A stretch of DNA of 29,475 bases from a virus. The stretch is taken from the IMG/VR virus record IMGVR_UViG_3300042922_000352, positions 1 to 29,475 of that record. One strand, given 5' to 3'. This document shows positions 13,532-29,302 of the stretch, one piece after another. Under the pieces are notes generated by a model, which saw only the letters and a program-made list of their open reading frames with translations, had not been told where the DNA came from and did no database searches. How positions within the stretch are numbered: the first letter of the stretch is position 1; every line of letters starts with the position of its first letter. The translations under genes and the position numbers were made by a program.

Positions 13532-13978
13532 TTAAATTTCTTTAAAGAATCTTTCCACTGCTTTCTTGCAACTGTCTTCTGTGTGTTTCTTCCCCATTCG
13601 GTGCGCCACTTGAATCCATGTCAAATCCTCAATAAATCTTAGATTTAGCAACCTTCTCATTCTTGCATCATCTACTGTGCTAATAAATTCTTCCGCTTGG
13701 TTGATTGATTCTAAGTAATTAAACTCTAAGGTTACTAGTGTAGCTCTTCTTGTATAGTATAGAGTCTTTGCCTGACTGTATTTCGGATAAGGAAACCCTC
13801 TTACTTTGAAGTTCTGTATTCCTCCTTCTCCTCCTTTTACGCAATCTATAACAGCTCCTTCCTCTTCCATTCTGTTTATTTGAATTTCTAGAGCGTCAAT
13901 CTTTCTTCTAAGGTCTTTTACTTCTTCTCTGAGTTCTGCATATTGTATTAGTATTTCTTTGGTTAAGCATTCAGTCAA
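13532..13978 (-). CDS. Late transcription activator, sigma-70 region 4-like (ArpU/RinA/DUF1492-like)
   Basis: 148 aa. Start taken as TTG at 13978, with AAAGGGGGA about 6 nt upstream; an ATG at 14020 would add 14 residues but has no RBS. N-terminal coiled coil (QYAELREEVKDLRRKIDALEIQINRMEEE), then a linker, then a helix-turn-helix: LLNLRFIEDLTWIQVAHRMGKKHTEDSCKKAVERFF. This is the layout of phage late-gene regulators that act like a partial sigma factor. It lies immediately upstream of the packaging genes, where such regulators normally lie. Probable target is the TGTCACG repeat promoter just downstream. Confidence 0.82.
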   Translation of the reverse strand: MTECLTKEILIQYAELREEVKDLRRKIDALEIQINRMEEEGAVIDCVKGGEGGIQNFKVRGFPYPKYSQAKTLYYTRRATLVTLEFNYLESINQAEEFISTVDDARMRRLLNLRFIEDLTWIQVAHRMGKKHTEDSCKKAVERFFKEI

Positions 13979-13991
13979 GTTAATTCCCCCT

Positions 13992-14315
13992 TTACCCCTT
14001 TTCACCATATTTGCATTCATTGCAGTTTTCTCTACATTTGATATAGAAATCTGATGAAGCAGTACATTTATATCCTTTTCTATTTATGTCACTCTTATCA
14101 TCTGAGTGCACTATTTTCTCTTCCTCTATTAGTTTTATCTTGTCCTTCCATTCTGCTACTTTAGAATAAAATTCATTATAGCAATCACTGCACAAATCCA
14201 TTCTTCTATATGCTTCATAGTCTAAATGGAGAGGATGATTTCCATATCCGTTAACTATTTCGCATTTCCATTCTATTCCGCATCTATCACAGCTATAGAT
14301 TGTTCTATTTCCCAT
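13992..14315 (-). CDS. Small zinc-ribbon-like protein
   Basis: 107 aa, ATG at 14315 with AAAGGAG. Two N-terminal Cys pairs (SCDRCG and LCSDCYNEF, about 30 residues apart) make a zinc-ribbon-like knuckle; four more Cys lie near the C-terminus (KCTASS, KCRENCNECKYG). Between them is a Lys/Glu-rich helix. Function unknown; could bind nucleic acid or protein. One of a cluster of Cys-rich small proteins in this part of the early operon. Confidence 0.72.
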   Translation of the reverse strand: MGNRTIYSCDRCGIEWKCEIVNGYGNHPLHLDYEAYRRMDLCSDCYNEFYSKVAEWKDKIKLIEEEKIVHSDDKSDINRKGYKCTASSDFYIKCRENCNECKYGEKG

Positions 14316-18401: not shown

Positions 18402-19703
18402 TTATTGAATTGTTCTAAATCCTAATATGCAGTAACTCTCTGTTAGCCCTGTGTAATCTTCTAACATGCTTGTGATTAAGGCTTTAAAGCTTCTTCCTGT
18501 GTGTTCTCCGTTGTTGTATTCCTCGTTTTGGAGGATATCGCCTACTTTGAAATCTCTGTCGTTTTTACGAAGAGTAAATGGCTTTGTTCCGTTTAGTTCA
18601 TCCTCGTAATACATAGTAGCAAGTTTAATTGGATGGATTCTGTCTGTAGGTTCTTTAGATTCTTCTTGTGATTCTTCCTGCTGCTTGATTGGCTGTGATG
18701 TGCTTGTTTGCTTAATTGAATTTGCTTTTTCTTCCTCTTCCCGGTCACTAAGCATGTTGGGTCTGTTTCGGTCTTTAAAATCGTTACAGTTCGTAACCGA
18801 AGGGTCTCTTTTGTCGCATCTGTCCCAATTACTACAGGAATAACACCTTGATGTCATGTAATCGGGGTCAGGACTAAAATTGTCCTCTTCTGGTTCGCTC
18901 TTTGGTTCTTCTGGTGCATATTCTGGATACTCGTCAATATCAATTTGCCCTTCGACTTCTTCCTGCTTGTCCTGTTCTATGATTTCTTTTACTTCTGTAT
19001 AGGTGATAGAGCCTGTTTCTTTATATTGGTTGTAAAGCTCTTTCTGTTCTGCTTCGGGTAGTCCTGCAAGTTGGTCTGCTGCCGAAAAGGTTATGCGGTC
19101 GCTTTTGGTTTCTTCTAGGAACTCTGGTATAAGACTTTTATTGATTTTGTCTATTTGACCTATCTTGGTTTTATTGGTCTGGAGCATAGAAGCAACAATA
19201 TCCCTTAGTCTGCCTTTTGTTAGGTCGTAGCCTTTTATGGGGATTTTGTTATCTCTTAGGTACTCTAGGTTTTCTTTTAGCTTCTGGGTCTCTTCTAAGG
19301 TTTCCCTTATGCTTTTTACACGGTGAGAGTTGCTAATAATTAATTCTATGCTTTCTTCTTTTCTTGTTACTTGTGCCCGAATCTGGCACGTTACTAATTC
19401 AAATTCTTTGTACCCTTGGGAGACTAGGAGTTTTAGAGATTCCCATCTTCTTTCACCGCTTATAAGTCGGTATTCTCCTTTATCGCATGGGTCATATACG
19501 ATAACTAAGTTTTCCATAAGTCCAGACATTAGGATTTTAGATGCTAAATCCTCTATATCGTTTATTTCGTAAAAGTTTGCTTCGTTTCTGTAGATTTTGA
19601 ATATGCTTACGTCTTTTGTACGAAACCTTGCTTTGGGTGAATCGTCTTGACCTGCTTTGCTGTTTTGATTTAAAACATCCGTTATCTTGAATCCTGCTGC
19701 CAT
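18402..19703 (-). CDS. parB: ParB-like protein fused to DUF3850/ASCH-like domain
   Basis: 433 aa, ATG at 19703, 2 nt after the ParA stop. Residues about 27-125 are a ParB/Srx nuclease-fold domain with the signature GEYRLISGERRWESLKLL (GERRW at 83-87). About 130-200 is a helical domain like the ParB DNA-binding middle. An acidic Pro/Glu linker leads to a Cys cluster (Cys287, 290, 296, 306). Residues about 357-431 look like DUF3850, an ASCH-related fold (HPIKLATMYYEDELNGTKPFTLRKNDRDFKVGDIL in family form, written here with its key Arg379-Lys380). The ParB part suggests partition or regulation with ParA; the C-terminal part suggests RNA or small-ligand binding. The fusion seems complete. Confidence 0.8.
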   Translation of the reverse strand: MAAGFKITDVLNQNSKAGQDDSPKARFRTKDVSIFKIYRNEANFYEINDIEDLASKILMSGLMENLVIVYDPCDKGEYRLISGERRWESLKLLVSQGYKEFELVTCQIRAQVTRKEESIELIISNSHRVKSIRETLEETQKLKENLEYLRDNKIPIKGYDLTKGRLRDIVASMLQTNKTKIGQIDKINKSLIPEFLEETKSDRITFSAADQLAGLPEAEQKELYNQYKETGSITYTEVKEIIEQDKQEEVEGQIDIDEYPEYAPEEPKSEPEEDNFSPDPDYMTSRCYSCSNWDRCDKRDPSVTNCNDFKDRNRPNMLSDREEEEKANSIKQTSTSQPIKQQEESQEESKEPTDRIHPIKLATMYYEDELNGTKPFTLRKNDRDFKVGDILQNEEYNNGEHTGRSFKALITSMLEDYTGLTESYCILGFRTIQ

Positions 19704-19705
19704 AA

Positions 19706-20482
19706 TTAATCATCCCCCAAATACATTAATAATTCTTCTGTTACTGCTTTATAATCCTTTGTAGCTATCCCATTCTTTGAAAAGGCAGGAAGGGGCACAA
19801 AGGCATGAGTTGATTTTTCCACTACCACACTCCGTCTGATTGAGGTTTTAAAGGCATTGTAGCTATTTTTAAGCCACGTTTCTGCTTCTAGAGTGGTAAT
19901 ATTCTTTTGTTTCATTGTCATAAGCATCATTAACCTGATATCGGGGTTGAATTGCTCTAATTCCTCTATTTGCTCTATGATATTGTCAAGTGCATCTACT
20001 TCGAATCCACCTAGCTTTACTGGTGCAATTACGTAGTCTGCCGCTATCAGCATATTTGTAACTGCCATATCAAGGGTAAGACCACAATCACATATCAAGT
20101 AGTCGTAAGAATGGCTTATTTCCTCAATGGCATTCTTAAATCGCGTGATCTGGTCGGAATCTCTTTCCAGGAGAAGTTGCATATTGGTTCGCATTAAATA
20201 CCCATTGGCAGGGATTATATCTATGTTTTCATATGGTGTATTTTTAATTAAGTCGATTGTAGAGTATTCACCGCCTATAAGATTATGTTTTTCTAATAAC
20301 TCAGACATTCCTATTCCTTCTGGTTCTAATCTTCCGAAGAGTTTAGATAAGTTTCCTTGTTGGTCGCCGTCTGCTACTAAGACTTTCTTTTTATGGGTTT
20401 CTCCGAGTATATGTATAATAGATGAAGCTGTAATTGTTTTTCCTATTCCCCCTTTGGGGGTCATAACTGCGATTACTTTCAT
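19706..20482 (-). CDS. parA: ParA family ATPase
   Basis: 258 aa from the ATG at 20482 (AAAGGA close by and GGAGG slightly further); an ATG at 20536 would add 18 residues but has no RBS and reads through a hairpin. Walker A is KGGIGKT with the deviant-Walker lysine (MTPKGGIGKTITASS), then VADGDQQGNLSKL and the YDYLICDCGLTLDM Walker B region. Family role: DNA-bound ATPase that segregates plasmids, or a regulator. Pairs with the ParB-like gene directly downstream. Confidence 0.9.
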   Translation of the reverse strand: MKVIAVMTPKGGIGKTITASSIIHILGETHKKKVLVADGDQQGNLSKLFGRLEPEGIGMSELLEKHNLIGGEYSTIDLIKNTPYENIDIIPANGYLMRTNMQLLLERDSDQITRFKNAIEEISHSYDYLICDCGLTLDMAVTNMLIAADYVIAPVKLGGFEVDALDNIIEQIEELEQFNPDIRLMMLMTMKQKNITTLEAETWLKNSYNAFKTSIRRSVVVEKSTHAFVPLPAFSKNGIATKDYKAVTEELLMYLGDD

Positions 20483-20495
20483 GTTTTCCTTTCCT

Positions 20496-20516
20496 CCAGG
20501 GGCTGTGTGCCCCTGG
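20496..20516. promoter_or_regulatory. Perfect GC-rich hairpin just upstream of parA
   Basis: CCAGGGGC and its exact complement separated by TGTGT, an 8-bp stem in an AT-rich region, ending at the GGAGG of the parA RBS. Could be an operator for a ParA/ParB protein, or a hairpin that controls ribosome access. It has no T-tract, so it is not a terminator. Confidence 0.55.
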
Positions 20517-20590
20517 ATAGGCTCTAACTGTTGCATTGTGATATGTATACATCTTAGAGGGGACTTGTTAACTGGTTGCTATAGTCAAAT

Positions 20591-20926
20591 TCAATACTTA
20601 GAATAGACTAGGTTCTTTTTGTTCCAATCATGATAATAGCTTTTCATATAGATTTCTAAATCCTCTTGCATCTGCTCTCTTAATCCTTGATTACCGTTGT
20701 CCATCAAATTATGATGATATCTGCATCCTTTTGCGCCATTTTCCTCAATGCCGAGTCCTCCCTGAGACTTATTAATTATGTGCATTGGGTCGTATGTAGT
20801 AAGGTCGAAGTCGTGCGCTCCGTCGGTGCTGTATCCTAATTTGCAGAATACGCAATCTTCATCACGTTCAAATATTTTAATTTTTGTTGCTTTGCTAAAT
20901 TGTGTTGCTTTAGTTCTTTTATGCAT
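20591..20926 (-). CDS. HNH-type protein next to the methyltransferase
   Basis: 111 aa, ATG at 20926 with GGAG 7 nt upstream; a TTG at 20944 is weaker. Zinc pair CVFCKLG near residue 25, then YDPMHIINKSQGGLGIEENGAKGC and RYHHNLMDNG. This is the HNH layout, but the residue before the catalytic His is Met rather than Asp. It may be a nuclease or a degenerate one. It begins 10 nt after the methyltransferase stop, so the two are likely co-translated. Confidence 0.78.
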   Translation of the reverse strand: MHKRTKATQFSKATKIKIFERDEDCVFCKLGYSTDGAHDFDLTTYDPMHIINKSQGGLGIEENGAKGCRYHHNLMDNGNQGLREQMQEDLEIYMKSYYHDWNKKNLVYSKY

Positions 20927-20936
20927 TATCTTGCTC

Positions 20937-22640
20937 CTATGCAAATTTTAATTGTTCTTGGGTATCATCAATTCTCATGTTGGGCATTCTTTCCGCTGTA
21001 CAGAGGTCTGGAAGATTTGTTTTAACTAAAGCTTTTGCAAATGGTGGCGGTACTGCATTACCACATCTTTTTACCTGTTCAGTTCTCGAATATTCTTTCC
21101 CTTTATGGTCTTTGTCGATTATATAATCCTCTGGAAAGCCTTGTGCATTGTAGAGTTCCCTTGGTTCTAACATTCTGAGTCCTATATCAACTATCTGATA
21201 ATTTACTCCTTTAATGGTCACTAACCCGAATCGATCATTTGAGGTGACTGTATCAAGCGGTTGATTTATATCTTGCCCCGTTCCTTGCCCGTAGTATTTG
21301 GTTAGAAAGGTTCTAACCTCTCCAAAATGTCCTGGTCCAGCAACTATTGTATTAATTGGTTCATTCATATCTTGTCCTGTACTATTATGATTCATTTGTA
21401 TAATACTGCTTGCTGCCAACTCACTTTTACCTTTTCTGTCTCCAAAAACAGGCTTTCCATAATATTTTTTAAAGAATTCCTCAATACCTTCCTTGGGTTT
21501 GATATCATTTGAAAGTTTAATTTCAACCTCTGTCATTACATTTCTGGCAGTAATAGTATGTAACGGCTCTTCCATATCGCTTGCTACCGATCTGCTCTCA
21601 CCTGCATAATTTTTAGATATAAAGGCACTTACCAACCCATATCTATTGCTTCCATCTGCTGTCAATAATGGTTCGTCAATATTCTGACCTCTAACTCCGT
21701 TCTTAGTTGTTTCGCTATGATACTGAATAATTGTAGGAGTTATTAAACAATGTTCATTTTTACTTACTATCGTTGTTAAGGGTTCATGAATCGAATAACT
21801 TCTATCCTTACTAAATCCTGTTTGTCCTATCTGAACTATAAAAGGGCTGTCCGACTCAATAACAAATTTTTGTAAACCTCTAGCTATTCTTTTCATTGTA
21901 TTTTCTGCCAAAGGCCTAACTGCTCTAATTCCGTACTTTTTCATAATATTTTCCGATGTATCAAAAATACTAGGACATGGCAATGAAAAATCTATGCATT
22001 CATAGGCAGCTACATAGGGCTTAAGTAATCCTTGTATGACCATCTCGCTATCTTTTGGTGCATGTGTAGGTTTTGGCCATGCTATTGACTCACTATCACA
22101 TCGCGCAATCATAAAGAATCTTTTTCGCTTAGTGGGTGCCCCATAATCAGCAGCTACTAATTCACCGAATTCTACTTGATATCCCAGATTCCTTAATTGA
22201 TTGATAAATCTTTCAAAAGTCTTGCCCTGTTTTGCTTTAATTGGCCTATGTCTACGGTTTAATGGACCCCATGTTTTAAATTCTTCTACATTCTCTAGCA
22301 TTATTACTCTTGGTCTTACAAGTGCAGCCCATCTTAATGCCACCCATGCTAATCCTCGTATGGTTTTATCCTTAGGCTTACCGCCTTTTGCCTTTGAAAA
22401 ATGTTTGCAATCGGGAGAAAACCAAGCTAGCCCAACCTTGCGACCTTTGCAAGCTTTAACAGGGTCTACATCCCATACACTTTCACAATAGTGTTCTGTG
22501 CTAGGGTGGTTAGCTTTATGCATTTTAATAGCCTCTGGGTCGTGGTTAATTGCTATATCTACGCTTCTTCCAGTTGCTAATTCTATGCCCGTAGAGGCTC
22601 CGCCCCCTCCTGCGAAGTTATCAACTATTATCTCTTTCAA
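20937..22640 (-). CDS. DNA (cytosine-5) methyltransferase with five repeated target modules
   Basis: 567 aa, TTG at 22640 with AGAGG about 8 nt upstream (the next ATG would remove motif I). Motif I FAGGGGAS (9-16), catalytic motif IV FSPDCKHFS with Cys78, motif VI ENV (116-118), motif VIII-like AADYGAPTKRKRFF (163-176), and the terminal motifs IX/X YNAQGFPEDY and RCGNAVPPP (about 525-533). Between VIII and IX sit five copies of an E/Q-P-L/I-x-T-I/V element (at about 286, 323, 358, 427, 460), the likely target-recognition region. Role: 5-methylcytosine in phage DNA, protecting it from host restriction or marking it. Confidence 0.93.
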   Translation of the reverse strand: MKEIIVDNFAGGGGASTGIELATGRSVDIAINHDPEAIKMHKANHPSTEHYCESVWDVDPVKACKGRKVGLAWFSPDCKHFSKAKGGKPKDKTIRGLAWVALRWAALVRPRVIMLENVEEFKTWGPLNRRHRPIKAKQGKTFERFINQLRNLGYQVEFGELVAADYGAPTKRKRFFMIARCDSESIAWPKPTHAPKDSEMVIQGLLKPYVAAYECIDFSLPCPSIFDTSENIMKKYGIRAVRPLAENTMKRIARGLQKFVIESDSPFIVQIGQTGFSKDRSYSIHEPLTTIVSKNEHCLITPTIIQYHSETTKNGVRGQNIDEPLLTADGSNRYGLVSAFISKNYAGESRSVASDMEEPLHTITARNVMTEVEIKLSNDIKPKEGIEEFFKKYYGKPVFGDRKGKSELAASSIIQMNHNSTGQDMNEPINTIVAGPGHFGEVRTFLTKYYGQGTGQDINQPLDTVTSNDRFGLVTIKGVNYQIVDIGLRMLEPRELYNAQGFPEDYIIDKDHKGKEYSRTEQVKRCGNAVPPPFAKALVKTNLPDLCTAERMPNMRIDDTQEQLKFA

Positions 22641-22645
22641 GTCCG

Positions 22646-22744
22646 TTACCTCTTTTTCTTTCCGTACATGAATTGATTCATGTTGCCTTTTTTATTGTTT
22701 GCTGTCATTTTCTTTTTACCTGCTACCTTAACGAATTTCCCCAT
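22646..22744 (-). CDS. Micro-ORF, 32 aa, very basic
   Basis: ATG at 22744 with AAGGAGG 6 nt upstream, TAA at 22648-22646. 32 residues, 12 of them Lys/Arg (begins MGKFVKVAGKKKMTANNKKG). It overlaps the end of the RNase H-like gene and stops 5 nt before the methyltransferase start. The RBS is among the best in the region, so translation is likely. No known family. Confidence 0.6.
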   Translation of the reverse strand: MGKFVKVAGKKKMTANNKKGNMNQFMYGKKKR

Positions 22745-23195
22745 GCTTGTCCTCCTTGTATTCTATTTCCACTCTCTTAAGCATTAATTCTATGTAGCTT
22801 GTGTATTGGTTTGTCTCTACCAAAGAAAAATTAACTTTATGTATTGCGAGCTGTTCAATTAGTTTTTCCCAAAGGTCTGGATTCTTGACAGGTTTGTTTC
22901 CAACTGTCCAGTTTTCTATATTCCATTTGTAGTAGTATTTGTTGATCATGATTTCAGTTAGATAGCGGTTATCTATACTCAGATTAACTGTACATGGTTT
23001 GGTTAAGTAGGATAATGCTTCTATGCAAGCTGTTAAGGCTATTCGGTTCTTGCTTGTGTTAGTAAGTCCCCCGAAGTATTCTCTTGTTTCTGGTTCTTTG
23101 TTGGCTTTTATGTACTCTAGGATTATTCCGTAAGTGCCCTTACCTTTGCTTTGGTGCCCTTGGTGGGTAGTGTTTATATATATGCTTACTTCCAT
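22728..23195 (-). CDS. RNase H-like protein, catalytic residues mostly replaced
   Basis: 155 aa. The RNase HI fold is visible: VSIYINTTHQGHQSKGKGTYGIIL (first two strands), NTSKNRIALTACIEALSYL (the strand-helix that normally holds the catalytic Glu), then VNLSIDNRYLTEIM (third metal Asp retained) and NWTVGNKPVKNPDLWEKLIEQL (terminal helix). The first catalytic Asp is Asn/Thr (INTT for TDGS) and the Glu is Ala (RIAL for RAEL). Either it lost nuclease activity or acts as a structural or nucleic-acid-binding relative. Part of the early operon. Confidence 0.78.
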   Translation of the reverse strand: MEVSIYINTTHQGHQSKGKGTYGIILEYIKANKEPETREYFGGLTNTSKNRIALTACIEALSYLTKPCTVNLSIDNRYLTEIMINKYYYKWNIENWTVGNKPVKNPDLWEKLIEQLAIHKVNFSLVETNQYTSYIELMLKRVEIEYKEDKHGEIR

Positions 23196-23204
23196 GGAAC
23201 CTCC

Positions 23205-23432
23205 TTAGATTTTTCCGCTTTGTAAGTAGGTATCTAGGTTGTAATCATTAAGGCCGAAAAGCTTGTAAAGAATTAATAGTGCTATTCCTGTAAATATTGC
23301 AAAGCAAACTATTCTTGCTAATGATCTAACCTTTATCTCCCTTACGACTCCTTTATTTTCCATAACCTCACATGTTTTATTTACTTCCCATGCAAAGACG
23401 ATTAGTATTAGTACGTTAAATATTAGTAACAT
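23205..23432 (-). CDS. Small membrane protein, two transmembrane segments
   Basis: 75 aa from the ATG at 23432, which has AGGAGG 7 nt upstream; longer in-frame extensions overlap the rep gene and were dropped. Hydrophobic segment 1 is LLIFNVLILIVFAWEV near residue 2-17, and segment 2 is IVCFAIFTGIALLILYKL near 42-60, separated by a charged loop (CEVMENKGVVREIKVR). Function unknown. Follows the Rep gene by 20 nt. Confidence 0.6.
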   Translation of the reverse strand: MLLIFNVLILIVFAWEVNKTCEVMENKGVVREIKVRSLARIVCFAIFTGIALLILYKLFGLNDYNLDTYLQSGKI

Positions 23433-23452
23433 TTTTAGTCCTCCTATCCTTT

Positions 23453-24250
23453 TTATGGTTCTTCTCTTCCGTGGCTGCGTATTTCCTTTATTCTGTATTC
23501 CGTATAGTGATAGTAGCTCATTCCTGTATAGGGATTTACTCCATAGTGTATAGACTCTTGGTCTATGTAATAACCTGGTGTTGGTTCTGCTCCATTCTCT
23601 ATTAGTTTTCTTACTGTCCATCTTCTATGTTGTGTTCTCTCTGGCTCTGGTCGTATTAAGTTGCGAGATGAAGAGTAACTTACCAGTTCTTTTCTTTCCT
23701 TTTCCGAGAAAAGACTTAACTGTCCTTCCATTTCCTCGTCTGGTTGTTTTACAATATAGTTTGCAAGTTTCTTGTATCCGCCATACTCATAGACACTCTG
23801 AAAATTTACACGGCCATTAGTCCAACATTTTTGTATTGTTATATCTGTATCTGGTTTTCCTCTTGACCTGTTTATAAGGATGTGGATGTGGATTCCTCCA
23901 TGCTCTCCAATTTCTATCCGATATATAAATTTGAATATCTCTCCGCACTTCTTATATGTTTTTCTCATTAGCTCTAGAAACTTTTTTAGGTCTTCTTTTA
24001 CTTCCTCTATTGTTTTCCTTATTCCTTCTGGATATTTCAAAGTATTCCATAAATCATCTGGAACAAAATTGGCTTTTATAAGCCTTCTCATTTTCTTTTC
24101 TCTATTTGTTTGGTTTTGCTTTTTAATCTGTTCGGGAGTAGCCTTTTTCTTCTTGGTTCGCTTTTCCCCTTTAGCTCCATACTTTCCTGCGTATTTATAC
24201 TCGTACTCATTGGAGTTGGTAAATTCCCACTTATCTTTCCAGTATGCCAT
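23453..24250 (-). CDS. HUH endonuclease replication protein (Rep-like)
   Basis: 265 aa. ATG at 24250, with AGGAG about 10 nt upstream. A basic N-terminus (YKYAGKYGAKGEKRTKKKK) precedes a helical segment, then the HUH signature EIGEHGGIHIHILINRSRG (HIH at 121-123) and the tyrosine motif YEYGGYKKLANYIVKQPDEE (Tyr165 the likely nucleophile). A conserved-looking tail (RRWTVRKLIENGAEPTPGYYID) completes it. Family role: nicks one strand and starts rolling-circle replication of plasmids and phages. No other replication gene is visible in the region. A relaxase role is the main alternative. Confidence 0.85.
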   Translation of the reverse strand: MAYWKDKWEFTNSNEYEYKYAGKYGAKGEKRTKKKKATPEQIKKQNQTNREKKMRRLIKANFVPDDLWNTLKYPEGIRKTIEEVKEDLKKFLELMRKTYKKCGEIFKFIYRIEIGEHGGIHIHILINRSRGKPDTDITIQKCWTNGRVNFQSVYEYGGYKKLANYIVKQPDEEMEGQLSLFSEKERKELVSYSSSRNLIRPEPERTQHRRWTVRKLIENGAEPTPGYYIDQESIHYGVNPYTGMSYYHYTEYRIKEIRSHGREEP

Positions 24251-24323
24251 TTATACCCGTCTCCTAATCTAACTTTAATATACTTAGAATGTTATTTAAG
24301 GTTGGCTTAACCTCTTCATGAAT

Positions 24324-24352
24324 TTGACAAAACGGTACAAACGTGCTATACT
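24324..24352 (+). promoter_or_regulatory. Sigma-A promoter reading against the operon
   Basis: TTGACA (24324-24329), exact 17-bp spacer, TATACT (24347-24352) on the plus strand. It faces the terminator hairpin 36 nt downstream and the minus-strand operon runs the other way, so the transcript would be short and antisense to the rep leader. Confidence 0.7.
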
Positions 24353-24358
24353 TTATGT

Positions 24359-24424
24359 ATTATATTTTTTAATAGCAATTTGTATCGTTACCTGTCTAAT
24401 TCCCGTTAGACAGGTAATTTTTCT
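24359..24424 (+). ncRNA. Putative antisense (counter-transcribed) RNA in the rep leader
   Basis: From the predicted start near 24359 to the T-tract ending about 24422 this gives an RNA of about 65 nt with no ORF. It is complementary to the mRNA leader 110-170 nt upstream of the HUH rep start and to the last codons of the gene before it. The arrangement mirrors plasmid copy-number control RNAs. Prediction from sequence only. Confidence 0.55.
24388..24422 (+). terminator. Strong intrinsic terminator (or Rep origin hairpin)
   Basis: A perfect 12-bp inverted repeat, TTACCTGTCTAA (24388-24399) with its complement (24406-24417), loop TTCCCG, followed by TTTTT on the plus strand. Minus strand has no T-tract after it. 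A Rep nick-site hairpin is an alternative reading, given the HUH rep next to it. Confidence 0.75.
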
Positions 24425-24594
24425 TGTCTTTCACTCTTGTACCAGTATTGATTGTGAATATCTTTGTAAAACAAATATCTTACGTTTACATTGGTATGTC
24501 CTCTTGTAATACTGCCTATGTACTTTAATTCTTCGGGCTTGTCCTTTTCTGTAAAGCTCGTAGCATTGTTCCAGGCGATATCTAGTTCGTTCAT
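24406..24594 (-). CDS. Hypothetical small protein
   Basis: 62 aa, ATG at 24594 overlapping the stop of the Spo0A-C gene (ATGA). Acidic N-terminus (LDIAWNNATSFTEKDKP), then basic and aromatic (VRYLFYKDIHNQYWYKSERQ). Its last codons lie inside the terminator-like hairpin, so its mRNA end would be complementary to the small antisense RNA. No function recognised. Confidence 0.6.
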   Translation of the reverse strand: MNELDIAWNNATSFTEKDKPEELKYIGSITRGHTNVNVRYLFYKDIHNQYWYKSERQEKLPV

Positions 24595-24923
24595 GCTTTC
24601 TTTACCTCATAGACAATGTACGCAATAAAATTCTTGTTTGTTTCCCCTCCAGAGTCATGTCCGAAATATTTCATCAGGACTTCTTTTTCTGCTTTTTCGA
24701 AAGCTGTTATTATCCCGTGTCTAATTGCTCTTTCTACTTTTGTTTTGCTGCTATCGCATTCATTTCCGATTATTTCGTATAACCCTCCTGCTTTGCATAT
24801 GTAATCAGCTTTGCTTTCATCTGCAACGATTAGCTCTACGGCTTTTTTTATAAATTTGAATCCTAAGTTCCCCATCGGTATTCTTAGCTCTTTTAAAATT
24901 TCAACAATTTTATTTTCTAGCAT
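24591..24923 (-). CDS. Spo0A C-terminal domain protein (no receiver domain)
   Basis: 110 aa, ATG at 24923 with AAAAGGAG 7 nt upstream (a longer version to 24950 overlaps the previous gene). The whole protein follows the DNA-binding domain of Spo0A: an N-terminal helix pair (ILKELRIPMGNLGFKFIKKA), the recognition region KTKVERAIRHGIITAF matching Spo0A SRVERAIRHAIEVAW, and the FGHDS...NKNFIAYIVYEVK end matching the domain's last helix. There is no receiver. Role is inferred: competing for or adding to Spo0A-box regulation, or controlling the phage. Confidence 0.88.
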   Translation of the reverse strand: MLENKIVEILKELRIPMGNLGFKFIKKAVELIVADESKADYICKAGGLYEIIGNECDSSKTKVERAIRHGIITAFEKAEKEVLMKYFGHDSGGETNKNFIAYIVYEVKKA

Positions 24924-25167
24924 GTTTTTTCTCCTTTTCTTTAATAACACATCCTTGCGCTATTTCCGCATATGTGAAAGATTCTAATGTTTTAAAATCT
25001 TCTCCCTTTCCAACAAGAACAATATTAGGATACTTTTTAATGATTTTTGCTTTGGTTCTCGTTGTACAACTTGTCCTGCCGTCAGTTTCTTTTCCTTCTT
25101 TAACGATAATGACTCTGTCGCCTTCTCTTAGTATTTTGCTATTTTCTCTTAATTCTTTTGATGTCAT
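24910..25167 (-). CDS. Hypothetical small basic protein
   Basis: 85 aa, ATG at 25167 with AAAGGAG 8 nt upstream. Contains EGDRVIIVKEG and TKAKIIKKYPNIVLVGKGEDFKTLESFTYAEIAQ, a small beta-barrel-like pattern (SH3-like), with a Lys-rich C-terminus. Function unknown. Second to last before the HUH/Spo0A-C block in reading order. Confidence 0.65.
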   Translation of the reverse strand: MTSKELRENSKILREGDRVIIVKEGKETDGRTSCTTRTKAKIIKKYPNIVLVGKGEDFKTLESFTYAEIAQGCVIKEKEKKHARK

Positions 25168-25649: not shown

Positions 25650-25663
25650 CACATTATAATGTG
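25650..25663. promoter_or_regulatory. Palindromic operator 1
   Basis: CACATTATAATGTG, a perfect palindrome, overlaps the -10 of the leftward early promoter. Half-site CACATT recurs in operator 2; likely repressor binding site. Confidence 0.7.
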
Positions 25664-25681
25664 CTCCAATGTCATTGTCAA
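25653..25681 (-). promoter_or_regulatory. Early leftward sigma-A promoter
   Basis: TTGACA (25681-25676), 17-bp spacer, TATAAT (25658-25653), exact consensus. Operator 1 covers the -10. Confidence 0.85.
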
Positions 25682-25724: not shown

Positions 25725-25748
25725 TTATCAGTGGGAGGTGATGAATTT

Positions 25749-26138
25749 TTGAATGTGAATAACAGGATTAAGTTATTAAGGAAAGATTACTTAAAATTAA
25801 CTCAGGAACAATTTTCCGATGCTATATCTATAAGCAGAGCTAACTTGGGTAGTATAGAGGTCGAGAGAATAAATGTTACTGATAGGGTTGTTCAAGATAT
25901 TTGTAGGGAATTTAATGTAAGTGAAGTATGGCTTAGAAATGGTGAAGGTGAAGTATTTATCTCTTTCCCGATAGAAGATGAATTTTTTCGAGCTGCTGCC
26001 GAGTTATCTAAAGAGGGTGACGAATTTATAATCGCAGGAGTTGTTGAGTACTGGAAATTAGACAAAGATAGCCGTTCTATTTTAAAAAATTATTTATTAC
26101 ATATTGCTGATAGAATAAAAAAAGAAGAGCAGTCTTAA
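25749..26138 (+). CDS. CI-like phage repressor (XRE family), no peptidase domain
   Basis: 129 aa. Start taken as TTG at 25749, where GGAGGTGA ends 7 nt upstream; GTG at 25755 is an alternative. Residues about 1-65 are an XRE helix-turn-helix (NRIKLLRKDYLKLTQEQFSD, then AISISRANLGSIEVERINVT). The remaining 60 residues (FPIEDEFFRAAAELSKEGDE..., KLDKDSRSILKNYLLHIAD) are helical and show no S24 protease motif. It lies between divergent promoters and shares its intergenic operators. Role: keeps lytic genes off; must be removed by something other than self-cleavage on induction. Confidence 0.85.
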   Translation: MNVNNRIKLLRKDYLKLTQEQFSDAISISRANLGSIEVERINVTDRVVQDICREFNVSEVWLRNGEGEVFISFPIEDEFFRAAAELSKEGDEFIIAGVVEYWKLDKDSRSILKNYLLHIADRIKKEEQS

Positions 26139-26427: not shown

Positions 26428-26445
26428 TGTCCGCACGTGCGGACA
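26428..26445 (-). terminator. 18-bp perfect palindrome, probable terminator of the XRE gene
   Basis: TGTCCGCACGTGCGGACA, GC-rich in an AT-rich gap. As RNA on the minus strand it folds as a 7-bp stem with ACGT loop followed by ATTTTCT, a plausible short terminator after the XRE gene. A protein-binding operator is an equal alternative because the palindrome has no spacer. Confidence 0.55.
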
Positions 26446-27285: not shown

Positions 27286-27846
27286 ATGGGTCTGTTCGGT
27301 AAATCACTTGACGATATGGCAAGGAAAGAAATGGAGTTGCGGAAAGGTTATGTTTCTCGTACTCCTGGTGAAGAGGTCAATGTCAAGATTGATGATCTTA
27401 GAAGTGATGATATAGTAAAAAATGCAAATATTGAGGTTGCCAAGTTGAATTATGGCATTGCTAGGTTGACTAAGTATGCATTGTATGTATTAGTTGCATT
27501 GATTTTTATTGCTGTGTTGCTTACTGTGGTCGAAAATGCAATAAAACCTAAACCTGATTATGAATTATTTCAACGAAATGCGGGTATATATCTTGAGCTG
27601 AATGGAGCAGTAAGTGATTACAGATTTATAGATGACGATATCGTCAGTGTTACAGTCGATGATTCATGGTTCAATAGTTCCAAGTTATCAAAGGTTCGAT
27701 TTTGTACTGCTATAAGAAATGGTTTGACTGCATTCGGTCTTAAGTATCACGTTGTGGAAGATGATTATATCTATACTGTTTTTTACGATAGTGCAGGTGT
27801 TAAGGTTGCGAAGCCTAATTGGGATAGTTTTGATATTTTGTATTGA
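27286..27846 (+). CDS. Single-pass membrane protein with extracellular domain
   Basis: 186 aa, ATG at 27286 with AGGGGGTG. N-terminal ~60 residues hydrophilic (LFGKSLDDMARKEMELRKGY), transmembrane segment about 62-83 (TKYALYVLVALIFIAVLLTV), then about 100 residues with a Tyr/Asp-rich beta pattern (YRFIDDDIVSVTVDDSWFNSSK, RFCTAIRNGLTAFGLKYHVV). Ends 16 nt before the integrase. Not a domain I recognise; probably a surface or exclusion protein co-expressed with the TM2 protein. Confidence 0.7.
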   Translation: MGLFGKSLDDMARKEMELRKGYVSRTPGEEVNVKIDDLRSDDIVKNANIEVAKLNYGIARLTKYALYVLVALIFIAVLLTVVENAIKPKPDYELFQRNAGIYLELNGAVSDYRFIDDDIVSVTVDDSWFNSSKLSKVRFCTAIRNGLTAFGLKYHVVEDDYIYTVFYDSAGVKVAKPNWDSFDILY

Positions 27847-27862
27847 TAATTGGAGGTATGGT

Positions 27863-29302
27863 ATGAGAAAAGCAGCACTATATATACGTGTCAGTACTGA
27901 CAAGCAAGAGGAATTGTCTCCTGATGCACAGAAAAGACTTTTATATGAATATGCAGCAAAAAATGATATTGAAATTTGTGAAGATTACATATTTCTTGAA
28001 GGTGGTATATCTGGTAAGAAAGTAGATAAGCGTCCCCAATTTCAAAAAATGATTGGACTTGCCAAGTCGAATGATCATGTATTTGATGTGATTTTAATTT
28101 GGAAGTTTTCCCGTTTTGCTAGAAACCAAGAAGAAAGTATTGTCTATAAGTCGTTATTAAAGAAAAATAATATTGATGTTGTTAGTATATCCGAGCCTAT
28201 CATTGAGGGTCCATTTGGTTCTCTTATAGAGCGTATTATTGAATGGATGGACGAATATTATTCCATTCGCTTAAGTGGCGAAGTTGTTAGGGGTATGACA
28301 GAAAAGGCTTTAAGGGGTGGTTATCAGTCTATGGCTCCTTTGGGTTATACAAAAGGTAATCCGCCTACTATTATCCCCGAAGAAGCTGAAATTGTTAATT
28401 TGGTTTTTGATAAATACCTAAATGAAGGTTTAACAGTATTTGAAATTGCTAGATTATTAAATGAAATGGGATTAAAAACAAGGCAAGACAATCTTTTTGA
28501 ACGTCGTACAATTGAATACATTTTAGAGAATCCTTTTTATACTGGTCATATAAGATGGTTTAGACAAAATCATGAAAATCATACCGTTAGAGATAAGTCA
28601 GAATGGATTGTTAAAAAAGCTAAACATGAGCCAATTATCTCGGAAGATGTATTTAGACAAGTCCAAGAGCGCATGAGATTAGATCGGAGACCATTAAAAT
28701 CTAGACCTGTAACAGAATATAGACACTGGCTTTCTGGAATAATAAAATGCGGTTATTGTGGTAAGCCCTTAGTTGCTTCAAAAACCAAAAATCCTAACAG
28801 ATATAACTTCCAATGCAGTGGGTATGGTAAGGGTAAATGTGAGTCTAATGGTGTATCCAGTAATAATATAGTACCAGAAATATTAAAAGCTTTCAAACGC
28901 ATAGTTGAATCAGGGGATATTGACTATAGCGTACATGATCATAATGATAATAAATTAAGTACCACCCTGCTTGAACAGCAATTGTCCAAGTTGGATGTAA
29001 AAAGCGAGAGAATAAAAGCAGCTTATATAAATGGGGTTGATACATTAGAGGAATACAAGGCAAACAAAAACGCCATTGTAGATGAACGTAACTTATTGAT
29101 TAAACAAATAAAGGATATAAATAAAATTGCTACTAAAAACCATAAGCCAGAAATGTTGAAAAGGGTTAATAAGGTGTATAATATTCTTATGGATGACAAT
29201 GCCGATATGTTAGTTAAGAATCGTGCTATTAGATCAGTCTGTGAGAAGATTACCTATAATAAAAGGGAAGGGCTCATTGATATTTATTTCTACTATATCT
29301 GA
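27863..29302 (+). CDS. int: Large serine recombinase (phage integrase)
   Basis: 479 aa, ATG at 27863 with GGAGG 6 nt upstream; an in-frame extension back to 27752 overlaps the previous gene and is dropped. Catalytic domain: YIRVSTDKQ with nucleophile Ser11, then IWKFSRFARNQEE (Arg residues of the active site near 84-87). Recombinase domain from about 155 (GGYQSMAPLGYTKGN...). Zinc ribbon Cys296, Cys299, Cys318, Cys326 (IKCGYCGKPL ... FQCSG ... GKCESNG), then a long coiled coil (about 395-460). Role: integrates and excises the prophage at a host attB without a transposase. The att site should lie near its end. Confidence 0.95.
   Translation: MRKAALYIRVSTDKQEELSPDAQKRLLYEYAAKNDIEICEDYIFLEGGISGKKVDKRPQFQKMIGLAKSNDHVFDVILIWKFSRFARNQEESIVYKSLLKKNNIDVVSISEPIIEGPFGSLIERIIEWMDEYYSIRLSGEVVRGMTEKALRGGYQSMAPLGYTKGNPPTIIPEEAEIVNLVFDKYLNEGLTVFEIARLLNEMGLKTRQDNLFERRTIEYILENPFYTGHIRWFRQNHENHTVRDKSEWIVKKAKHEPIISEDVFRQVQERMRLDRRPLKSRPVTEYRHWLSGIIKCGYCGKPLVASKTKNPNRYNFQCSGYGKGKCESNGVSSNNIVPEILKAFKRIVESGDIDYSVHDHNDNKLSTTLLEQQLSKLDVKSERIKAAYINGVDTLEEYKANKNAIVDERNLLIKQIKDINKIATKNHKPEMLKRVNKVYNILMDDNADMLVKNRAIRSVCEKITYNKREGLIDIYFYYI

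Follow-up and report, generated by a model that had tools for sequence, protein, structure and literature searches.

A candidate HUH Rep-only replicon with predicted antisense-RNA control in a family of integrating tailed phages

Our analysis of the virus record IMGVR_UViG_3300042922_000352 (positions 1 to 29,475; this whole stretch of 29,475 bases is called the window) points to a temperate, tailed prophage of gut bacteria, namely Firmicutes of the Lachnospiraceae type, and to its early replication module. The best explanation is that of a replicon with a rolling-circle initiator of the HUH type (Rep) as its only initiator, a candidate origin directly ahead of the rep gene, a predicted antisense RNA that would control Rep synthesis, and an optional ParA/ParB cassette. 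To this explanation as a whole, the type of phage and of host included, we assign a probability of about 0.68. The window takes in the whole of this linear IMG/VR contig; its left end is cut within a tail gene and the lysis end of the genome lies outside it.

Rep as the only recognisable initiator

The rep gene occupies positions 23453-24250 of the minus strand and its product matches the family PF23343 (REP_ORF2-G2P; E 1.1e-16, 61.4 bits against a cut-off of 27.8) as well as phrog_3584, annotated as 'replication initiation protein' (E 2.4e-45). The residues E113, H121, H123, Y165 and K168, which include the HUH motif and the catalytic tyrosine, are invariant across 49 sequences. Foldseek matched the structure model of Rep (predicted local distance difference test score, pLDDT, of 90) to Reps of siphoviruses and microviruses and gave weak matches to HUH domains of viruses; among solved structures the top matches were the HUH domains of adeno-associated virus Rep and circovirus Rep, at E values of 0.008-0.05 and with low TM scores. 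The VIA comparison gave Z scores of at most 6.4 for HUH proteins, pMV158 RepB (Z 5.5) among them, while a sequence search of the solved structures returned no meaningful match. We file the protein as a PF23343 HUH Rep, its nicking activity being predicted. A plasmid origin of Rep was considered and rejected: tblastn at E 0.01 found no match in 72,556 plasmids, and this absence marks Rep, as judged by similarity, as an initiator of phage lineage.

The preliminary description of this DNA saw no helicase, primase, polymerase, single-stranded DNA-binding protein (SSB) or recombinase between the late regulator and the early promoter and named the HUH protein as the single candidate initiator. Both observations hold: DnaB, IstB/DnaC and SSB are lacking in the whole 29,475-base record, and the Pfam and PHROGs scans of the early open reading frames (ORFs) found no primase, polymerase or recombinase. 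The comparison was extended with a profile built from five Reps, which recovered 81 related loci in viral contigs and bacterial genomes, nearly all of the named genomes being Lachnospiraceae or other Clostridia. Together with the window and MT835488 these loci form a set of 83, and 38 of the relatives plus the window form the 39 viral records referred to below. DnaB was found in none of the 39 viral records, IstB/DnaC above its cut-off likewise in none, and SSB occurs occasionally (7 of 39). Two relatives bear on the missing left part of the genome: the 35-kb relative G001, where tail and lysis genes are present and Rep is 78% identical, and the complete circular genome of Butyrivibrio phage Arawn both carry Rep without helicase, primase or polymerase. 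Because these two genomes show the same lack, it is unlikely, as had been supposed, that further replication genes lie left of the window, and Rep is the sole recognisable initiator in the window and its relatives as far as their sequences can tell.

Candidate origin, antisense RNA and rep leader

In an alignment of the DNA upstream of rep the intergenic sequence could not be aligned, apart from a block just ahead of the gene. This block holds a near-universal core motif of 26 nucleotides, TAACATTCTAAGTATATTAAAGTTAG (24269-24294, minus strand), a candidate for the nick or Rep-binding part of a double-strand origin. It is present no more than 120 nucleotides upstream of rep in 61 loci and lies 35-80 nucleotides ahead of most rep starts. 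The TTAAA within it is nearly invariant among 50 dereplicated loci, a column conservation that is somewhat inflated by the selection of the loci on the core motif itself; elsewhere in these loci nothing comes closer to the motif than 7-12 mismatches. A small hairpin stands on the 5' side of the motif (origin hairpin; 24296-24315, minus strand), and a hairpin of unrelated, variable sequence is found at the same place in relatives (z below -1.5 in 39 of the 50 loci). In the loci of the distant Reps of Arawn, L089, L045, L029 and L088 the place of the core motif is taken by CTTGATA or close variants. The nick region of phiX174 reads caacttg/atattaataac in the sequence that we fetched, and CTTGATA is a site of the same type. 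Hairpin and motif, a conserved combination just ahead of rep, are together the origin candidate and are likely to constitute a nick origin.

It could be argued that the core motif is rather a promoter or another protein site serving rep, and that the origin has another location, such as within rep, as the motif contains TATATT, which is near to a -10 box. However, the conservation spans about 20 nucleotides including AAAGTTAG, no conserved -35 partner accompanies the TATATT, and both the variable hairpin directly 5' of the motif and the CTTGATA of the distant relatives speak for an origin. We consider such a promoter or protein site unlikely.

Opposite the rep leader we find a sigma-70 promoter directed away from rep (TTGACA-N17-TATACT, 24324-24352, plus strand, 11/12 consensus; -35 box TTGACA at 24324-24329, -10 box TATACT at 24347-24352), which has the same position in most relatives. 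It is predicted to yield an antisense (countertranscribed) RNA of about 65 nucleotides (24359-24424, plus strand) with a terminator stem at 24387-24418 followed by a T-run; the predicted fold has a minimum free energy of -18.2 kcal/mol and a z of -6.9. In a typical locus the promoter lies about 29 nucleotides from the core motif and the terminator ends about 55-75 nucleotides past the -10 box. A single detector for the unit of promoter and intrinsic terminator recognised it in 31 of the 50 dereplicated loci; as controls, neither the sense strand nor the DNA downstream of rep gave a single case in 50 loci, one case turned up among 542 stretches upstream of other ORFs, and the rates in 899 random segments and in shuffles were 1.1% and 1.0%. 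The predicted RNAs measure 57-77 nucleotides and end in a terminator hairpin: what they have in common is the architecture and not the sequence, almost none of which is shared in an alignment of 20. Between the window and L002 the antisense stem shows four compensatory pairs and zero broken ones. Among named hosts, Lachnospiraceae bacterium 10-1 has the full unit in locus L053, and in Lachnotalea glycerini DSM 28816 (L047) the promoter, the core motif and Rep are present. Rfam, searched at E values up to 5, has no family overlapping the antisense RNA in this region of the window. The predicted antisense unit is common, though not universal, in the Rep family, and by analogy the RNA may work like the countertranscribed RNAs of plasmids, such as pMV158 RNAII and pT181 RNAI.

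The spacer of this promoter, as read in the rep mRNA, forms leader element A (24330-24346, minus strand), which is complementary to two other places. One is leader element B (24375-24388, minus strand), situated within the stretch that the antisense RNA covers and forming the 5' part of its target; the other is the ribosome-binding and start region of rep (24245-24263, minus strand), with which A is predicted to form a duplex. Over 39 loci the complementarity of A to B has a z of -13.8 and that of A to the ribosome-binding site a z of -6.2 (-5.6 without the window), each with 0 of 20,000 permutations, and the control pairing of B with the ribosome-binding site has a z of 0.1; as the loci are related, these permutation z-scores overstate their independence. 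The duplex of A with the ribosome-binding site in the window (-16.9 kcal/mol) ranks second in strength within the set, and in an equilibrium partition-function test the blocking of A raises the predicted access to the ribosome-binding site (p 0.003). This suggests that, where B does not hold it, A would close off the start of rep; an antisense RNA covering B would, in this view, keep rep off. A cotranscriptional switch at the rep leader is possible, and its direction is a prediction.

Besides the relatedness of the loci, several observations weigh against the control of rep by an antisense RNA. When B is covered by the antisense RNA in the same equilibrium partition-function calculation, access to the ribosome-binding site is not significantly lower and shows a trend only (p 0.11). 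The ParA clade of L024, L067, L068, L071 and L074 gave no hit for the antisense unit, and inspection by eye of the DNA ahead of rep in Arawn and L089 showed none.

A different role of the RNA has to be considered as well, namely that of a primer at a single-strand origin: the inverted repeat around the promoter would fold in the displaced strand while this is single-stranded, RNA polymerase would start there and the short transcript would prime the lagging strand. The promoter indeed sits directly on the 5' side of the origin candidate, its direction is the one required for priming on the displaced strand, which is rep-sense, and the inverted repeat of A and B spans the promoter spacer in many loci. 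A primer, however, requires neither a strong intrinsic terminator whose distance is fixed nor a complementarity between A and the rep start region (the z of -6.2 given above), and the near lack of common sequence among the aligned RNAs also speaks against it. The role of a primer therefore appears rather improbable to us.

Some side observations concern the same RNAs. Rfam hits in nine relatives were confined to a FuFi-1 RNA (L016, 6134-6299) and an RT-4 RNA (L003, 254-371), both at other places. Two prophages of one isolate genome, L012 and L013, have related Reps, the same core motif and a nearly identical antisense RNA; those of L048 and L054, which are both in another host, are different.

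Taken together, replication might proceed as follows. After excision Rep would nick at the core motif, and helicase, polymerase III and SSB of the host would extend the 3' end by rolling circle, the DNA product feeding the terminase. The antisense RNA would limit Rep synthesis: A would pair either with B or with the rep start, and once the antisense RNA occupies B, A would be available for closing the start of rep.

The ParA/ParB cassette and the early operon

The ParA-type ATPase (19706-20536, minus strand) matches AAA_31 (E 2.4e-33) and phrog_164 (E 9e-53), has the deviant Walker A motif KGGIGKT, and its nearest solved chains are ParA/Soj. The ParB-like protein (18402-19703, minus strand) matches ParB_N at E 8.3e-6, its 26.2 bits being slightly below the Pfam cut-off of 26.3, and phrog_4715 (ParB-like) at E 1e-38; a GERR motif is present and was aligned with ParB 6t1f, and the protein may have a CTP-binding N domain. 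It ends in an ASCH-like DUF3850 domain (E 2.8e-19) that the preliminary description had not mentioned. The view that Rep and ParA/ParB form a characteristic unit did not survive the comparison: ParA occurs in just 12 of the 83 loci and the ParB-like protein in 11 of 83, downstream of the pair of Rep and RNase H-like genes, and we rejected ParA/ParB as a hallmark of the Rep family. The same slot is occupied in 34 loci by PcfK/PcfJ, whose names go back to genes of the plasmid pCF10. ParA and PcfK/PcfJ were never found together in the 72 loci with enough sequence (p 0.0007); it counts against this exclusivity that it weakens on dereplication of Rep, still holding at 80% (p 0.02) and being lost at 70% (p 0.12). 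On these sequence comparisons ParA/ParB is an optional cassette exchangeable with PcfK/PcfJ. It probably acts on the excised circle, in partition, copy control or regulation, and would be dispensable for replication. As a separate observation, PcfJ and PcfK are common early genes of related prophages (e.g. L008, 11835-14278).

The search for parS-like repeats near parA that was proposed at the outset gave candidate sites in relatives and a less clear one in the window. Seven ParA loci of one clade have two 17-bp palindromes of the form GTGTC-N7-GACAC inside parB, 69 bp apart, with L069 and L071 having one copy with a single change; one palindrome of this type each is present in L045 and L065, and a variant in L013. 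Of the 11 other ParA-bearing loci 9 have such palindromes, which are parS-like by position and symmetry. The sole parS-like site of the window is the degenerate palindrome GTGCCAGATTCGGGCAC (19373-19389, minus strand), also inside parB, which has 3 mismatches to the L065 site, with 0.03 such matches expected by chance.

These findings bear on the initial proposal that the element is plasmid-like and persists as a circle, i.e. a phage-plasmid in which Rep would serve maintenance replication and ParAB partition. It draws on ParA, the ParB-like protein, the parS-like palindromes of the relatives and the plasmid-style control RNA, and in L024 the lysis genes lie directly beside the integrase, a layout expected of an excised circle and not of an integrated genome. 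Contrary to it, a serine or tyrosine integrase is present in 33 of the 39 viral records, including the large serine recombinase of the window (27752-29302, plus strand; PF07508 E 9.2e-29, PF00239 E 8.7e-27, phrog_95 E 3e-113); the rarity of ParA and the absence of Rep from plasmids point the same way. The ParA-bearing L067 also has an integrase, a tyrosine-type ORF of 364 amino acids upstream of the early region (called by eye from sequence and position); two of the six ParA-bearing viral records are without one, but these records are possibly incomplete. Since the window and most relatives carry an integrase, ParAB is no replacement for integration; in the window the integrase is neither absent nor replaced by parABS, and the element is not filed as a phage-plasmid. 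We give this proposal little credence. Replication control looks plasmid-like to a greater extent than was visible at first, given the antisense RNA locus and the candidate origin beside rep; a plasmid-derived Rep is not supported.

The joint operon of Rep, ParA and the ParB-like protein was correctly recognised at the outset. On the minus strand the genes read, from left to right, tail, head, portal, terminase, late regulator (13532-14020), small ORFs, ParB-like, ParA, HNH, C5 methylase, RNase H-like and Rep. The last six belong to one early operon downstream of a sigma-70 promoter with 12/12 consensus that reads toward rep (TTGACA-N17-TATAAT, 25653-25681, minus strand). The HNH endonuclease (20591-20944, minus strand; phrog_7370 E 3.8e-11) is a recurrent neighbour of Rep with a homologue in 23 of the 81 loci, and the C5-cytosine DNA methyltransferase (20937-22640, minus strand) matches PF00145 at E 6.2e-31. 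The commonest neighbour, in 60 of 83 loci, is the RNase H-fold protein (22728-23195, minus strand; PF00075 E 4.3e-14); its catalytic centre is not intact, and none of the 60 homologues retains all four catalytic carboxylates. Two positions upstream of rep, an early gene (24591-24950, minus strand) encodes a stand-alone Spo0A C-terminal DNA-binding domain without receiver domain (PF08769 E 3.9e-18), with a homologue in L011 (44%). Between the repressor gene (25731-26138, plus strand) and a TM2-domain gene lies a perfect 18-bp palindrome, TGTCCGCACGTGCGGACA (26428-26445), which may be a bidirectional terminator. In its CACGTG centre it resembles chromosomal parS; as a family-wide parS this palindrome was rejected, being present in no relative.

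Relation to known replicons and significance

The nearest functional match to the phage antisense RNA would be RNAII of plasmid pMV158, a 48-nucleotide RNA of a 5' tail and a terminator hairpin that blocks repB translation (PMC4485353). In the copG-repB region of pMV158 (PMC4485353) as in the window, the antisense RNA, predicted in the latter case, is short, has a 5' tail and a single terminator hairpin, and is encoded opposite the leader between an upstream gene and a rolling-circle rep. Contrary to pMV158, the element belongs to a tailed phage with a PF23343-type Rep, the predicted RNA has 57-77 nucleotides instead of 48, the leader in the window's family has an additional element complementary to the antisense target and to the rep start, and no CopG-like protein was identified. 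The Butyrivibrio phages Arawn and Idris are likewise tailed, have a related Rep (34% identity) and no annotated helicase, primase or polymerase (PMC7372960), and Arawn has a hairpin and CTTGATA before rep. They differ from the window by two SSB genes, the lack of ParA/ParB and the lack of a visible antisense unit upstream of rep; the word 'replication' is absent from the main text of the paper describing them (PMC7372960).

In parABS mycobacteriophages such as RedRock and Miko parABS replaces the integrase and the prophages are extrachromosomal (PMC7157519). They share with the window the temperate lifestyle and ParA/ParB, and some of those phages have a non-coding RNA at the replication origin; their initiators, however, are RepA-like or RNA-based, with HUH unmentioned (PMC7157519). 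Flavonifractor phage Cormatin (ON453905) has adjoining ParA and ParB-like genes with 29-31% identity to those of the window, but possesses, beyond these, a DnaB-like helicase and another gene for replication initiation. With the phiX174/pC194-type replicons the family shares an HUH nickase, here a predicted one, a CTTG/ATA-like site in distant Rep-family members and the ATATTAA of the phiX174 origin, whereas the close relatives of the window have TCTAAGTATATTAAAG instead of CTTGATA and the phage is a tailed one with double-stranded DNA.

In the literature searched no paper combined countertranscribed RNA, prophage and rolling circle, a search of limited scope that is no proof of novelty, and none combined temperate phage, antisense RNA, rolling circle replication and replication initiator protein. 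Judged against this literature and Rfam only, the apparent control of Rep by a plasmid-type antisense RNA, in a family of tailed phages, looks new. We would give even odds to a wider statement: that in a widespread family of integrating tailed prophages replication depends on a single HUH initiator, and that a fast-diverging antisense RNA, together with a three-way switch in the leader that overlaps the origin, governs the synthesis of this initiator. This would be plasmid-type copy control in a phage replicon with an incompatibility type for each phage, and with ParABS and PcfJK as exchangeable partners.

The core motif and the antisense unit can serve as markers for locating origins in phages without other replication genes. 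The lytic replication of phages is usually seen as unrestrained; a conserved antisense RNA beside the initiator would imply a plasmid-like limiting or timing of Rep synthesis. The compatibility of prophages, a delay of replication or a circular carrier state in abundant gut bacteria could find an explanation in such antisense control of Rep.

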